Virus record (IMG/VR): IMGVR_UViG_3300046167_000344
Location: 1-26,760 of that record
From: a virus
DNA: 26,760 bases
Direction: 5' to 3' (one strand)
Translations under genes and position numbers: made by a program
Part shown: piece after piece, positions 107-26,163 of the stretch
Layout of the letters: each line of letters starts with the position of its first letter
How positions within the stretch are numbered: the stretch's first letter is position 1
Notes under the pieces: generated by a model
What the model was told of the DNA's origin: nothing
Databases searched by the model: none
The model's input: only the letters and a program-made list of their open reading frames with translations

Positions 107-694
107 TCAGAATGGGATGTCATCATCAAACACTTTCGGCTTTGCTCGGATGTCGATCACCTCTGCTGCTGGGAAGGATTCTTTGACTGCCTTCTCGAAC
201 TCTCCTGCGTTGTGGTCTCGGAAGTTTCGGTATGCGAGTGCCACCTCTCTGAGCGTCAGCAGCTCTAGGTCTGGCCGTTGTTCTTTGATCTTCTGCCACG
301 ACCTTCCGTCTTTCATAATGCCAAAGGTCTCGCCATCCAGTTCCATCTCCCAAATGTCTGTTGAGGCTCTCTGTGCGCCTAGTCTCTCTGCTTCTGCGTC
401 CATTGCCTTGAGGCCTCTTACTACGACCTCTGCTCTTACCTTGCATTCTTCTGGATTGTTTTCTTCGATAGCCTTGTTCATCTTTGCCATTGCCGATCCG
501 TACTTCTGTGCTGTTTCGACGCTTACCAATTCTGGCAGCATGTCGATGCCCCACTTTGTGTCCATCTGTATTGCCAGCCGATCCATTGGAGCTATTGCGT
601 AGTCACACATGATTTGATCCTTATGCGCTTGCGGGTTGAATAACCTGTCTGCCTTCTTTTGTCGCCTTGGCCTCCGAGGCTTCTGCGTTGTCAT
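107..694 (-). CDS. Phage protein with an SSB-like C-terminal tip (FDDDIPF)
   Basis: A 195-aa protein if translation starts at the third ATG of an ATG triplet (694). That ATG has GGAG six bases upstream; an in-frame GTG at 706 and ATGs at 700 and 697 are closer to GGAG or overlap it. The N-terminus is strongly basic (KPRRPRRQKK). The middle is mostly helical and charged, without a fold I recognise. The last seven residues, FDDDIPF, are identical to the C-terminal tip of E. coli SSB, which docks replication and repair proteins (known for SSB). No OB-fold is apparent, so this is not an SSB. It is the last gene of the replication operon, directly downstream of the iteron cluster. I infer a DNA-associated adaptor that recruits host SSB-binding proteins. 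The function is not established. Confidence 0.85.
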   Translation of the reverse strand: MTTQKPRRPRRQKKADRLFNPQAHKDQIMCDYAIAPMDRLAIQMDTKWGIDMLPELVSVETAQKYGSAMAKMNKAIEENNPEECKVRAEVVVRGLKAMDAEAERLGAQRASTDIWEMELDGETFGIMKDGRSWQKIKEQRPDLELLTLREVALAYRNFRDHNAGEFEKAVKESFPAAEVIDIRAKPKVFDDDIPF

Positions 695-702
695 CATCAT
701 CT

Positions 703-846
703 CCACAGTTAAATCACCACAGTTTCATATAATCCACATTCCACCACAGTAGTATGCATATACATACAACTACTGTGGTGGAACTATTTGTGGCCTTTTC
801 TTCCACAGTTCCACAGTTCATCCACAGTTCAGAAAAACAACTGTGG
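703..846. other. Iteron cluster and long palindrome: probable replication origin
   Basis: The octamer CCACAGTT occurs in direct orientation at 703-710, 717-724, 803-810, 811-818 and 822-829, and inverted at 839-846. Two 7-base versions lie at 744-750 and, inverted, 772-778, inside a perfect 15-bp inverted repeat (739-753 and 769-783) with a 15-nt AT-rich spacer. A degenerate copy is at 734-740. Two sequences differ by one base from the DnaA box TTATCCACA (TAATCCACA from 730, TCATCCACA at 818-826). The cluster lies between a RepA-like primase-helicase gene and the next gene of its operon. Iterons beside a rep gene are typical of plasmid and phage origins. It could instead be an operator array. 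Confidence 0.65.
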
Positions 847-862
847 AAGTGCGGAACCAGCA

Positions 863-3055
863 TCAAACTTCCTCCCAATTGACCCACTCCCCGACCACCA
901 CGCACGGCACATCTCTTCCGCTTCGGCTGTCTCTTATCTCTGCGACTTTGAGGTTGCCTGTGCTGATCCACTTCTTGACGATTGCCTTTGCCTTTGCTTT
1001 GTCCCCTGGCTTTTCTGTGTCGAGGTCGAGCTGTTCTGCGACTGCATTGCCGATCCAGTTCTTTGCTCTGATGTCTGAGCGGTATGCCTTGTCGTTCTCC
1101 TCTGCCTTGCCGACTGTTCTTTGGACATCGTATAGGTCTTTGGTTGTCACGCCGTCGAATAAATTAGGAAGTTTGAACTCTGTGGCTACACCAATCAACT
1201 CAGAGTTTGCTATTTCGACTGAAATCATGCGGCGGTATGTTGCCTTGTCTGATGGCGGTGCGAGGTTTGCCTTGCCATCGTCTTGGCGGAATATGCCGAG
1301 TGCTTCTTGTTCGTCCACCCCGAGTGCCATTGCGTCTTCTGGTGTAATCCTGTTTATCACTCTTGCTGCTCTTGCTGCACCGATCAGACTGCCTGCACCG
1401 CGCACTGAATCCACTGTTGCGTCTTCTCCGTTGCCTTTGCGGATGTGATGCACGAGCTGTACTGAGCTGTTGGTGTCTCTTGCCAGCTTCCTGAGCATTG
1501 ACACGACTGCCTGGATGCTTCCATTATTATTCTCATTGACCAGGTGAGCTGATATGAAGGGATCTAGGATCACTACGACACCTATGTTGTTCTCTTTGAT
1601 CTTGCGGATCATGAATGCCAGCAGCTCATCGTTCTGGATCAGGCCGTCCCTTCCTTCTGCTGCCAGCGTGATCTGCATGGTGTCCTCGCCATCCATGAAC
1701 AGCTTTCCTTTGATGTCATCTGGCTTGAGGCCATAGTGCTGCATTGCTGCTATGGTTCTCATTTGGAGTTCTGAGATAGGATCTTCTAAATTTATGACCC
1801 ATGTGTTGCACTGCTCCTTGACCCTTACGCCAAGCAGGTCTTTGCCTGTCGATATTGCCAGTGCTTCCACAATGATTGCGGATGTCTTGCCTATGCCGCC
1901 GGCTGATGCTGTGACGCTGATGTATTTCTTGATGTAATCGTATCCATACACCCACTCTCTGCGCGGCAGCGTGAGGGCGTCAAACATTTCATAGGGTGTT
2001 GGCCAATCATTGCCTGTGTCGGCCTCTGTGTGGCTCTGTGTTGGCTCTGTGGCTATCTGCAATGTTTGGTTCTGCTGCTCCATGCGCTCGGCTGCTGGAT
2101 CAGGTGGTGGCGTCCAGCCTTTGTTTCTGGCGCCGTCAATTGCCTTCTGCACCTCTGCCCTTGTTTCTTCTACTGAGTAGCCGCCGAGGGTAAAGCCATC
2201 CGTGATCGCGTGGATCTCTTCGTCGGCTAGGCCTTTGTTGACGTATGATCCTACCAAGCGCACCATGTTTCTGTGCCAATCGTCCCCTGCTAGCACATCT
2301 TGGACTGCCATCTGCCTGTCCATTGCTTGCTGGCCGAGGTCTATGTTGATTGTGCTAGCAGTTTGTGGCTCTGCCTTTGGGAAAGCGCGCATCATGCGTT
2401 CAAATTCAACTGGTTCTCTGTCTGTTGAGAACTCTGTTCGCATTGTGACCAGCTCTGGGACATAGCCTTTGTCTTGTTTCTTTTGGTTGGGCCATGAGAC
2501 TGTGCCTGCCACGCGCATGATGCGTGATGGGTTTACGACTGCTGCATCTGTTTGGAGCGAGGCGGCGATTGCTTTTTGTACATCACGCCATGCTTGCATG
2601 TTTTGCACTGGCTCTTCGAGCTGCCAGTATGCGTGGCCTCTGGCGAATGGCGTTGTGCCTGTCTTGATCGACATTGTGAACTTTGGGCCGGCGAAAGACA
2701 GGATGTTTTCCATTGCGCCCGCAGTGTCTGCGTCCGCAAAGCAATAGAATGCGGCCAGGATGTCTGTGTCTTTGGCGGCTTGGCCTGCTGGTATCTCTAT
2801 GATTGGGTCAATTGGATTGATGCACATGTAGATGTTTTGCTTGGCGGCGTTCATTGCCTCGGCATGCTGGGCTGCGTCTTCTATGTTTTTTAGTGCAAAT
2901 CTTGCAGCGTTTGCTGATCCAGATTGCGAGATAGAACGTATCTCTATGAGCGGTTGGCCCACAGTGTTCCAATTTTCTGTGATCTGTGCTATGAACTGCT
3001 TAATGATTGCGGTTTTGGGAGCCATTTCCATTTGTTCTTCCACTTCCATTTTCAT
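863..3055 (-). CDS. Primase-helicase: AEP-type primase fused to RepA-like AAA helicase
   Basis: A 730-aa replication protein. The N-terminal domain carries archaeo-eukaryotic primase-type motifs: FADAD (106-110, metal-binding acids), HAYWQL (141-146) and RIMRVAGTVSW (178-188). The centre is a RecA-fold helicase of the RepA type, with Walker A SAGGIGKT (384-391), Walker B VVVILD ending at D498, LVHHIRKG (534-541) and RGAGSLIGAARAA (552-564). Residues 640-730 look like a winged-helix segment. It probably opens the origin, unwinds DNA and lays primers, acting at the iterons just downstream of its own stop codon. The start is supported by GGGGAGG five bases before the ATG. A second ATG lies at codon 3. 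No DNA polymerase lies nearby. The helicase assignment is firm, the AEP assignment good. Confidence 0.9.
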   Translation of the reverse strand: MKMEVEEQMEMAPKTAIIKQFIAQITENWNTVGQPLIEIRSISQSGSANAARFALKNIEDAAQHAEAMNAAKQNIYMCINPIDPIIEIPAGQAAKDTDILAAFYCFADADTAGAMENILSFAGPKFTMSIKTGTTPFARGHAYWQLEEPVQNMQAWRDVQKAIAASLQTDAAVVNPSRIMRVAGTVSWPNQKKQDKGYVPELVTMRTEFSTDREPVEFERMMRAFPKAEPQTASTINIDLGQQAMDRQMAVQDVLAGDDWHRNMVRLVGSYVNKGLADEEIHAITDGFTLGGYSVEETRAEVQKAIDGARNKGWTPPPDPAAERMEQQNQTLQIATEPTQSHTEADTGNDWPTPYEMFDALTLPRREWVYGYDYIKKYISVTASAGGIGKTSAIIVEALAISTGKDLLGVRVKEQCNTWVINLEDPISELQMRTIAAMQHYGLKPDDIKGKLFMDGEDTMQITLAAEGRDGLIQNDELLAFMIRKIKENNIGVVVILDPFISAHLVNENNNGSIQAVVSMLRKLARDTNSSVQLVHHIRKGNGEDATVDSVRGAGSLIGAARAARVINRITPEDAMALGVDEQEALGIFRQDDGKANLAPPSDKATYRRMISVEIANSELIGVATEFKLPNLFDGVTTKDLYDVQRTVGKAEENDKAYRSDIRAKNWIGNAVAEQLDLDTEKPGDKAKAKAIVKKWISTGNLKVAEIRDSRSGRDVPCVVVGEWVNWEEV

Positions 3056-3106: not shown

Positions 3107-3724
3107 TTAAAACTCTGCGTCAGCAGGAGCTGGTGCAGGAGCTGGTGCTGGTGCTGGTGCGGGTGCAGCTTCTTCGACTGCTATTCCTGCGGCGACACCT
3201 TCTTTGAGGCAGTCTGGCTTGTCTACCCACTTTACGATCTCAAAGATCGGGTAGCATGTTGAGCCTTTGGTGAACTTGATCTCCTTGGCTTCTACCATCT
3301 TGATAAGTGGCATCTGGCCGTTTGTGCCTTGGCTTAGTTTCGGAGCAAGGTCTGTCAGTGCAGCCCATACGCCGGCGCCTGCCTGCTCCCACATAGCGAC
3401 CTTGCCGCCACCGATTGCGCACTTGACCGAAAAGCCTTTCTTGTAATCATCTCCAGGCTTTGCCATCATTTGATTGACTGTCGGGTTCCACTTCCATTCA
3501 GGCGCCACGCCGACCATGCCGTCTGACTTCTGCCAGCCTGTCTTGAGGCTGTCTAGGTCAATGACGAAGCCGTTTGTTTGCGCAGCTTCAAACTCATCCT
3601 TTGCTGCACCGTCACGGGTGTAGAACTGTTTGGCTCGGACAGCGCCGTCCTGTGTGCCACGGGCTGACCATTGCAGGAATGTGTTAACGTCAGAGCCTGA
3701 TGCCCCTAGATCTATTTCAAACAT
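3107..3724 (-). CDS. Putative single-stranded DNA-binding or recombination-associated protein
   Basis: A 205-aa protein encoded between the nuclease and the primase-helicase. Residues 1-180 look like a compact alpha/beta domain rich in aromatic and basic residues (for example FYTRDG, WKWNP, IKFTKGSTCYPIFEIVKWV), as expected for an OB-fold. The C-terminus is a Pro-Ala repeat of about 14 residues ending in ADAEF, an acidic tip with terminal phenylalanine, as in phage gp2.5-type ssDNA-binding proteins, where the tail contacts partner proteins. A ribosome site (AAGGA) lies about eight bases before the ATG. Position and tail suggest ssDNA binding, but no diagnostic motif was found and another DNA-metabolism role is possible. 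Confidence 0.5.
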   Translation of the reverse strand: MFEIDLGASGSDVNTFLQWSARGTQDGAVRAKQFYTRDGAAKDEFEAAQTNGFVIDLDSLKTGWQKSDGMVGVAPEWKWNPTVNQMMAKPGDDYKKGFSVKCAIGGGKVAMWEQAGAGVWAALTDLAPKLSQGTNGQMPLIKMVEAKEIKFTKGSTCYPIFEIVKWVDKPDCLKEGVAAGIAVEEAAPAPAPAPAPAPAPADAEF

Positions 3725-6375: not shown

Positions 6376-6767
6376 TGGTCAAAGTAGTAGGCGTTGAAAT
6401 AAACGTCATGTCATTTAAACGCGCATTTAATCGGGAACCCACTGAGGCAGAGATGGGCGCCTTGATGAGACTGAACGCCAAAAGAAACGAGGGGCAATGC
6501 GGTGGCAAGAATACAATCGAAAAGATTGACAGGCGCTTGGCGTCTGCATCCAAGGCTCGGGATTACATTAAGAGCCAGCCGCTCAAGCGCAACATTGTAG
6601 TCACCCGCACTGCTTGGTCTGTTAATTACCTGCTCAAGTTAGACTTGAAAAAATCACAAATCATGGACGTTCTGCACATAAGTGAGATCGCTTATGATCG
6701 GGCCGTCAAGCAATACAATCTACCGCGTGACGGGATTGAAAGAAGGTTTAAAAATGACAAGAAATGA
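6375..6767 (+). CDS. Putative helix-turn-helix DNA-binding protein
   Basis: A 130-aa basic protein starting in a TAATG overlap. The C-terminal third (LDLKKSQIMDVLHISEIAYD and the following RAVKQYNLP) has the spacing of a helix-turn-helix: a helix ending in an IMDVL-like segment, a turn, and a second helix with exposed basic and polar residues. The N-terminal part contains another helix pair. It is the best candidate in the window for a DNA-binding regulator of the divergent operator, but that link is inferred from position only. Confidence 0.65.
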   Translation: MVKVVGVEINVMSFKRAFNREPTEAEMGALMRLNAKRNEGQCGGKNTIEKIDRRLASASKARDYIKSQPLKRNIVVTRTAWSVNYLLKLDLKKSQIMDVLHISEIAYDRAVKQYNLPRDGIERRFKNDKK

Positions 6768-7023
6768 AATACTCAAAGAAGCCGCGCGCATAATCAGCAC
6801 TGAAAGAGCGGACGATTATGGGCCGGCAGATGAATCGTTCAAGCGCATTGCTCAACTTTGGACATCTTATCTTGATGTGGCTGTCAGCCCTATGGACGTT
6901 GCCAATATGTATATACTGAGCAAGGTGCAGCGTACATTAACGTCACCAAGCAAAGATGATACATGGACAGATATTTGCGGTTATGCTGCATTGGCAGGGG
7001 AGATGATGACAAATGAAAAGTAA
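6754..7023 (+). CDS. DUF6378-like phage protein
   Basis: An 89-aa protein from ATG 6754, which has AAGG upstream; the frame continues upstream to 6682 but there overlaps the previous gene heavily. The pattern ERADDYGPADESF, then RIAQLW and DVANMYILSKVQR, then DTWTDICGYAAL, is that of the DUF6378 family, common in phages, whose biochemical role I do not know. It overlaps the preceding gene by 14 nt and contains the start of the next micro-ORF. Confidence 0.75.
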   Translation: MTRNEILKEAARIISTERADDYGPADESFKRIAQLWTSYLDVAVSPMDVANMYILSKVQRTLTSPSKDDTWTDICGYAALAGEMMTNEK

Positions 7024-24152: not shown

Positions 24153-26163
24153 TCACAAATCAAATGTGTTCATGCGCGGATATAGCGCCAGAACAGTCAT
24201 TGGCAGGGGCTGTGATTGCCGCACATAAATGCGATCACCGTCAACGAAACCGCCGTCAAACTCGATTTCCTTGTCTCCCGTGAATAATGGCACAGCTTCG
24301 TCCATATTCATAGAGCTGTCGCGGAAAAATATTCTATCCGCACTTTCTGAGTTGCTACCCACTTCAGCGCCAACCGTTTCATGGAATCGAACAGTGATGT
24401 CGTGTATGCGCTTTGGCTTGCCTTGGGAAGTGCCATCCTGAGATCCAGACTCTAAGCGCAGTGTTTGCATTTCACTGGTGTAGCCAAACCCAACGGCGCC
24501 CGTTGTAGCGGAAAAATCTAACGTCACGCCGCCGCCTGAAACTGTTTTGTCAGCATGTGTGGCGCCGTTAGCTAGTATCGAAAGCTCTTCGCCCTCTAAG
24601 TGATACAAGCCAGAAAGAGTTGTGGTTGCAGATCCTGAGTAGACCAAACCGCTGTCCACAAAGAAAGCAGCAGTCGTGTCGCTGCCAAAGTCAAATGCCT
24701 TCATCACTTCGACATACTGCTTGGTCACGCCGTTGATTGTGCGCTTAACAATCATGTAAAGCTCATCTTCACCGCTGTCTGTCGGCAAGGTGATGATGCT
24801 TTCAACTTTAGCCTGACCGCTCTCAAACTCCCCGCCGATAATGTGCTTGTGCCAAGCAACAATCTCTTCCTTCACGCCGGTAGGTCAATCCAAGCAAAGT
24901 GCCATCAGTGCGGCGCGCCCAGATGATGCTTTCAGGCTCTTGTTGGTACGCAAACTCTTTTATGCCGCCCTCAGTCAAATGCTCTGATAGAATTGTAATG
25001 TCAGGAGCTGCATAGCCTGCAACATCCACCTCACCAATATAACGAAACTCTCTAACCTTGCGCGCACCGCGCTGGGCAAACAATGTAACGTCAGCAACCT
25101 GGACAACTTCGCTGTCAATGCAACCGTAGTTAGAATACTTGCGGATCACTGTCTGCGTAGGCGTCACAGGCCCACCATTAGTTGTTGTCAGCACATACTC
25201 ACCACCAGACGTACCAATGTTAAGTATTCGAGTGGCTGACAGGTAACGGATTGCGTTTACTTTGTTGGACGCAATGGTGTAGATCAGAGCGTCATTATCA
25301 GCAGTGCCAGTGTGAAAATTTAAATAATCAGCACTTTTAGAAAACCACAACGTCTGAGGATTGTTGTTAGTTGCCGCAAAAACCAACCGCTGTTCAAAAA
25401 ACGTGACAACACTAGGGTAATTGTCGGCGCTAGTGAGAACTGGCGTGTTGTTCTCGTTAATACTAGGAGTGTCAAACGTCCAAGCATTATGATCGGTGCG
25501 AGACAATGTGCGGACAGCGTGGCTTGGATGCACCAAATACATAACATCCGCAGACTGTGCGAAACGCACATCACTTACCTGCGCGGATGTGTAGGGTGTT
25601 GCAACCTCAAACAATTTGTCAACACTGACGCCAGAGCCAGTGTAGGTTGTAAAACCTGTGGTATCAATTGCATTGCCAAACAAGTCAGTCAGCGTAAACG
25701 TGTTAGCTGTAGAGTTAGCAATAAGATAATTTCGAGCAACTAGCTCGGTCATATCGCCACCTTCGTTGTAAAGGTAAACTTCATCTCCATCGCTAAGGCC
25801 GTGGCTAGAGCTGGTAAAAACGCCAGGGCTTGCCTGCGTAATAGAAGAAACACTTTTTTCGCTATCAACCAAAACTTGCAAACCATTGCGGAAAACCCGC
25901 ATGTACTGATCGCCAAACTCTAGCGCGTATGTGTCGGCTGTTTTAAATTCAAAAGGTATCAAGCGGGTAATGCTTGAGCTATCCTTTACTTCGCCCAAGT
26001 ATTCTGTGCCTGGGCGGCGCGTAACGCCCCCATGAGGCTGCACTATCATGTTTGTAAGCTCGGACAAGCCTTCGCGGTACTTCTCAATCGTAACGCGCCC
26101 CTCAAGACGCGGAGAAATCTCACCGGCTGTGAATGTGCTAATCGCTGGAGCTGATCGCGCCAT
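24153..26163 (-). CDS. Tail tubular protein B-like, split by an apparent +1 frameshift
   Basis: The N-terminal frame (26163 to 24823, 446 aa) starts MARSAPAISTFTAGEISPRL and contains EGLSELTNMIVQPHGGVTRR, a hallmark of the tail tubular B family, the nozzle of podovirus tails. At LGLTYRRE it drifts into GRDCCLAQAHYRRGV and stops. The expected continuation, EEIVAWHKHIIGG, is in another frame reaching 24153. Skipping one G at about 24870 joins them into 669 residues. The separate GTG at 24875 is therefore unlikely to be a true start. Causes may be a sequence error, a mutation or recoding. The start overlaps the tail tubular A stop (TAATG). Family call strong; intactness uncertain. Confidence 0.9.

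Follow-up and report, generated by a model that had tools for sequence, protein, structure and literature searches.

The window (the whole stretch of DNA analysed, 26,760 bp) is an incomplete IMG/VR fragment of a marine phage; related contigs, two of which carry end repeats, gave a circular map of 32-34 kb. The coding order in the relatives is RuvC-like resolvase, nuclease-like p217, p205, helicase, array, p199, TerS, TerL, portal, capsid and tail, with a TerS of the Sf6 type (PF20901, 3.8e-18). The virion, described as T7-like in the first-pass annotation, is nearest to that of the HTVC010P-type pelagiphages, judging from tail tubular protein B (approximately 54%).

A repeat array at 702-849, which is a candidate replication origin, occupies the 707-862 gap between the stop codon of a 730-aa primase-helicase (863..3055) and the conserved partner gene p199 (107..706, 199 aa), both encoded on the minus strand, and overlaps the annotated 5' end of p199 (start GTG at 706 or ATG at 700, 697 or 694). 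Six exact copies of the octamer CCACAGTT were confirmed, five on the plus strand (703-710, 717-724 and three starting at 803, 811 and 822 within 803-829) and one inverted (839-846, minus strand); the minus-strand form of the first, AACTGTGGAG, abuts the p199 start. All six fall within 144 bp and none occurs elsewhere in the 26,760 bp (expected, 0.82), and at least six copies were reached in 0 of 100 dinucleotide shuffles of the contig. The degenerate copy was also confirmed, as CCACATT at 734-740 (plus strand, read directly). Positions 739-783 form a perfect 15-bp inverted repeat, with arms at 739-753 and 769-783 and a 15-nt AT-rich spacer; its arms had been thought to hold two further exact octamers, but the word in each arm is CCACAGTA (744-751, plus; 771-778, minus), which matches CCACAGTT in 7 of 8 letters. 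As single-stranded DNA, this palindrome has a predicted folding energy of -21 kcal/mol (z = -7). The segments 801-818 and 839-856 form a second inverted repeat of 18 nt, 89% complementary. A promoter and terminator scan returned no match, and GC skew, which was monotone without a switch in two circular genomes, was uninformative as an origin signal.

Searches with the p199 protein gave no match in Pfam or PHROG, no PDB fold match and no OB-fold match. Its C-terminus, DDDIPF (DDPIPF, DDEIPF or DDPIPW in relatives of its own group), resembles the tail of bacterial SSB; p199 of the CRP phages does not have an SSB-like tip, and their SSB ends in DDDIPW. We considered that p199 is itself an SSB and dropped this identification, as the tail peptide alone is SSB-like and neither family nor fold matched. 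A 205-aa protein, p205 (3107..3724, minus strand), is encoded upstream of the helicase. At the equivalent position in cultured CRP phages lies a gene annotated as ssDNA-binding, for which no sequence match to p205 was found. Pfam searches with p199, p205 and p217 were without a match.

Domains of the primase-helicase

The first-pass annotation called the helicase RepA-like, and both profile and fold comparisons bore this out. The best match of the core among PDB sequence profiles was RSF1010 RepA (E = 7.5e-11), and the fold comparison gave Z = 23.3 to RSF1010 RepA (1olo) versus 17.7 to the next entry. AAA_25 was detected in all 32 helicase members (E down to 6.8e-38), and the matches listed for these members did not include the DUF927, Primase_Cterm or SF3 families. 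The VIA matches listed for the helicase fall on the motor domain. The N-terminal part is called primase-like from a PDB match of residues 122-183 to an archaeo-eukaryotic PrimPol (E = 4.6e-5), the Pfam search with this part being without a match.

The C-terminal residues 638-730 (866..1144, minus strand) are predicted to form a winged helix, the proposed reader of the iterons. An AlphaFold2 model placed helices at 638-653, 668-675 and 683-699 and strands at 702-708 and 715-721 with a pLDDT of 77-88, in a model of the whole helicase that is weak (mean pLDDT, 61.6). This H-H-H-E-E order (638-721) corresponds to a predicted winged-helix topology in which the wing loop contains residue 712; searches of this region gave no Pfam match and no convincing PDB sequence match.

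Conserved array and changing word

The array was located directly upstream of p199 in all 82 distinct related loci, even where a gene of 0.7-1 kb separates the helicase from it. Thus, the array, whose absence from relatives the first-pass annotation had named as evidence against its reading, was present in every relative examined, which supports computationally the view that the RepA-like primase-helicase has this array as its iteron-type site. One locus (L153) is a fragment without flank, and in G012 the word differs and is GCGCCACTGG-like. The layout is kept while the word is switched coherently at all array positions, yielding CCACAGTT, CCACACTT, CCACACCTT or CCTCACCTT. The switch between CCT and CCA words recurs in a second group, whose helicases are 57-59% identical, and further loci carry the word CCCCACC; mixed words were seen in L055 and a few others. 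An array was sought after the helicase of RHph_X2_26 and not found. The RepA-like helicase of L106 is a different one, with a C-terminus of another kind, and nine CCACAGT copies lie nearby, that is, the same word with another reader. In L031, seven GCTAGCA words are clustered within 2.6 kb after the helicase, separate from the iteron array.

The same organization occurs in the cultured roseophages CRP-811, CRP-821, CRP-822, CRP-823 and CRP-831, in the order SSB, RepA-type helicase, array and p199 homologue (41-43% to p199 of the window). CRP-821 and CRP-823 are 97% identical in the N-terminal part and 99% in the core of the helicase but 67% at the C-terminus, and their words are GTATAAA and CTACAAA, respectively; conversely, CRP-811 and CRP-823 share 81% in the N-terminal part, 98% at the C-terminus and the same word. 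The p199 homologues (87-96%) do not track this exchange of C-terminus and word.

The two near-DnaA boxes noted earlier, TAATCCACA (730-738) and TCATCCACA (818-826), are indeed present with one mismatch each, and both contain the TCCACA core of the iteron word itself. One-mismatch DnaA boxes were found in 97% of the arrays with CCA words versus 4% of the 25 arrays with CCT words, and an exact DnaA box was absent from every array among the relatives. Since the near-boxes are lost on the switch to CCTCAC, they are by-products of the word, and we rejected a DnaA-assisted origin of the iteron plasmid type, for which kept DnaA boxes would be expected.

Coupling of the word to the helicase C-terminus

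To identify the protein that the word follows, we counted word changes on protein trees of 57 loci with five word states, for which the minimum is 4 changes and shuffled words gave approximately 28. The tree of helicase residues 656-730 required 5 changes, while those of helicase residues 1-585 and of p199 required 14 and 12, respectively. Windows of 75 helicase residues ending before residue 600 required 10-17 changes, although some of them are equally rich in informative sites. Two pairs of loci show the exchange directly: L085 and L046 are 95% identical in the helicase core and 94% in p199 but 44% in the winged helix, and their words differ, whereas L148 and L116 are 69% identical in the core, 48% in p199 and 85% in the winged helix, and their word is identical. 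These contrasts indicate cassette borders on both sides of the winged helix and array.

Among the 730 helicase columns in 79 long helicases, residue 712 was the sole one at which the residues of CCT-word and CCA-word loci are disjoint. It was Gln in 23 of 23 helicases with CCT words and Ser, Ala, His, Lys, Thr or Leu, never Gln, in 54 of 54 with CCA words; the wing is KHSR in both helicases with CCC words. Ranked by mutual information, the columns that come next (717, 641, 701, 655, 708, 642 and 700) likewise all belong to the C-terminus. All seven supported independent contrasts on the residue 1-585 tree agreed with residue 712 (sign test, uncorrected p = 0.016, for a column picked as the best). 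No column separating CCT from CCA words was found in p199, the nuclease, RuvC, TerS or TerL. The C-terminus does not account for base 6 of the word, as L032, L061 and L031 have nearly equal C-termini with G or C at this base.

Because the winged helix adjoins the array, physical linkage alone would yield part of this coupling. It would account for only a part, however, since p199 is equally near the array and yet does not follow the word. The loci with a gene between the helicase and the array (n = 16) were too few to tell linkage from function.

A candidate origin and its alternatives

As judged from sequence comparison, the array most likely serves as an iteron-type replication origin whose words are recognized by the C-terminal winged helix of the helicase itself. 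We assign a probability of roughly 0.8 to the whole explanation, in which the array at 702-849 would be the origin, the winged helix would read its words, and the two would be exchanged as a cassette. Several primase-helicase copies would bind the words through their winged helices, with the wing helping to read the third base of the word, CC[A/T/C]CA. The RSF1010-RepA-like motor domains would then assemble on the array and open its AT-rich or palindromic centre, priming would be carried out by the N-terminal primase-like domain, and a host polymerase, proposed because no phage polymerase was found, would extend the primers. The p199 protein may help to recruit host proteins through its SSB-tail-like tip. 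The winged helix and array would pass between phages together, and a tentative extension, to which we give somewhat less than even odds, is that they constitute an exchangeable origin-specificity unit dividing phages that are otherwise nearly the same into incompatibility groups. Replication would then require that enzyme and words match, the unit would be swapped as a whole in podoviruses, siphovirus-like roseophages and phage-plasmids, and the exchange would perhaps provide an escape from cross-replication by co-infecting relatives or satellites.

The first-pass annotation proposed a plasmid-like replication module instead of T7-type polymerase replication. The plasmid-like character is supported, as the same helicase-array pair was found on plasmids. 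Caenibius sp. WL p1 (L349, NZ_CP081845.1) is a circular 38-kb phage-plasmid with podovirus genes, in which the helicase is accompanied by 12 TGCGGAA words and a homologue of p199 (hhalign, 6.6e-14), with a terminase downstream; in its annotation, the sole recognizable replication gene is that of the RepA-like helicase with the array. Rhodoplanes serenus plasmid 1 has eight copies of GCGTCAC, and plasmids of Microvirga and Methylobacterium combine the helicase with CCCCACC- or CCTCACC-like arrays and encode Toprim as a separate protein. On the alphaproteobacterial plasmids, the array follows the helicase and no terminase adjoins it. The M. lotononidis plasmid additionally has RepB/RepC, so the helicase-array module is not its only replicon.

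The polymerase part of the proposal holds for the near relatives. Neither DNA_pol_A nor a single-subunit (T7-type) RNA_pol was detected in 11 near-complete relatives, the T7 control being positive in both searches. All large ORFs of the circular genome G010 were assignable by size, position and similarity to genes of the window, and none was a polymerase; inspection of ORFs revealed no type-B polymerase, and the PF03175 search was run without a positive control. HTVC010P also has no DNA_pol_A, and the same scan found no iteron cluster in HTVC010P or HTVC024P. However, Rhodoferax phage P26218 and Podoviridae ctfPj964 have repeats between a RepA-type gene and terL and also encode DNA_pol_A, so replacement of a T7-type polymerase by the module is not general. 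In ctfPj964 (L291, 2032-2324), fifteen ATCTGTCC repeats are located inside a stretch annotated as a pentapeptide-repeat gene.

Among the alternatives, the array could be a set of operators through which the helicase winged helix or another phage regulator controls p199 and the genes after it. The array abuts p199 and extends with its last word into the likely ribosome-binding region (read directly), and an origin could regulate too. We nevertheless consider this reading unlikely, since in far relatives the gene after the array varies and the RepA-like helicase before it is constant, and since at least eight sites and a long palindrome are much for an operator; a search of 600-1000 for a sigma-70-like promoter found none, which is weak evidence in the same direction.

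Somewhat less probable still is a pac site upstream of terS bound by the small terminase subunit. In the group of the source phage p199 is followed by the Sf6-type TerS and then TerL, and the repeats of P26218 and ctfPj964 lie upstream of the gene preceding terL, as this reading would have it. It is hard to reconcile with the terminase-free surroundings of the plasmid arrays, with CRP-811, in which terS is approximately 4 kb from the array, and with TerS itself, which has no word-separating column and whose tree required 7 changes versus 5 for the whole helicase at the same loci.

Iterated sites and palindromes mark centromeres too, and in a plasmid-like phage a partition or recombination site could look similar. 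This is very improbable, as the word tracks the replicative helicase instead and searches of 11 near-complete relatives, run alongside positive controls, detected neither a ParA-type AAA_31 nor a tyrosine integrase. A host DnaA origin made of degenerate boxes is the least probable reading: CCACAGTT with its preceding T does contain the DnaA box core TCCACA and there are two one-mismatch boxes, but the loss of these boxes with the CCTCAC word, the lack of exact boxes and the words of the cultured phages (CTACAAA or GTATAAA) largely refute it.

The preferred reading, an origin read by the helicase that is encoded beside it, has precedents. The C-terminal domain of SaPI Rep recognizes iterons directly downstream of its own gene, as does that of SCCmec Cch2 (PMC7581432), and here too the array is directly downstream of the helicase gene, although its origin role is proposed from comparison. 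Those helicases have DUF927 and Primase_Cterm (PMC7581432), unlike the RecA-like RSF1010-RepA-type motor and fused primase-like domain found here, and our setting is phages and alphaproteobacterial plasmids. P4 alpha combines a primase, a helicase and a C-terminal winged-helix origin binder acting on repeats in one protein; its primase is of the Toprim type (PMC4234260). The same three-part architecture is predicted for the 730-aa helicase. The helicase of P4 alpha belongs to SF3. By analogy, the anatomy appears to match that of initiator helicases with their own origin-binding domain, as in SaPI Rep and P4 alpha. In RSF1010 (IncQ), to whose RepA the core is closest in sequence and fold, RepA, RepB' and RepC are separate and RepC reads the iterons (PMC4234260), whereas here the motor, primase-like part and putative reader are in one 730-aa ORF. 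The words here are 8-9 bp long, unlike the RSF1010 iterons, and the ssi hairpins that serve RSF1010 as primase sites have a possible counterpart in the palindrome, which is hairpin-forming by folding prediction. ORF904 of pRN1 likewise joins an archaeo-eukaryotic primase, a helicase and a C-terminal winged helix, with the origin just downstream (PMC4234260); it differs in its SF3 helicase and in a stem-loop origin without iterons. In lambda, the iteron words of ori vary among related phages and track the DNA-binding domain of the initiator O. Lambda O is, however, a separate initiator with the iterons inside its own gene, while the putative reader here is fused to the helicase and the array is outside the gene. 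We found no description of an RSF1010-RepA-type motor with its own C-terminal origin reader in the literature searched, which is not proof of absence.

Like the phages studied here, cyanopodovirus MPP-C (PMC9860041) and HTVC010P combine a T7-like virion with the lack of an identified DNA polymerase. For the start of replication in such small podoviruses, PMC9860041 offers hypotheses only, and PMC12629253 takes replication to rely on the host, with no origin named in the portion searched. Our analysis gives polymerase-less podoviruses a located origin candidate, a probable reader and a one-residue/one-base prediction, and a domain-word swap could be tested in the cultured roseophages. One helicase-array module links phages, phage-plasmids and alphaproteobacterial plasmids.

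A scan of genome contigs for further relatives yielded none that was confirmed. Elsewhere in the window, the tail tubular protein B gene (24153-26163, minus strand) is split into two overlapping ORFs of 446 and 240 aa; as in G010 it is one ORF of 759 aa, a likely cause is a frameshift or an assembly error. A DUF6378 protein, whose relatives are classed as phosphofructokinase in PHROGs, is encoded at 6682-7023 (plus strand), and CRP-831 has a gene annotated as dATP/dGTP diphosphohydrolase at a similar place. A PAPS-reductase-like ORF of 243-250 aa (SFSGGRTSGY) lies between the helicase and the array in L031, L033, L042, L049 and L054, and in CRP-831 a PAPS-reductase-like gene is located after p199.
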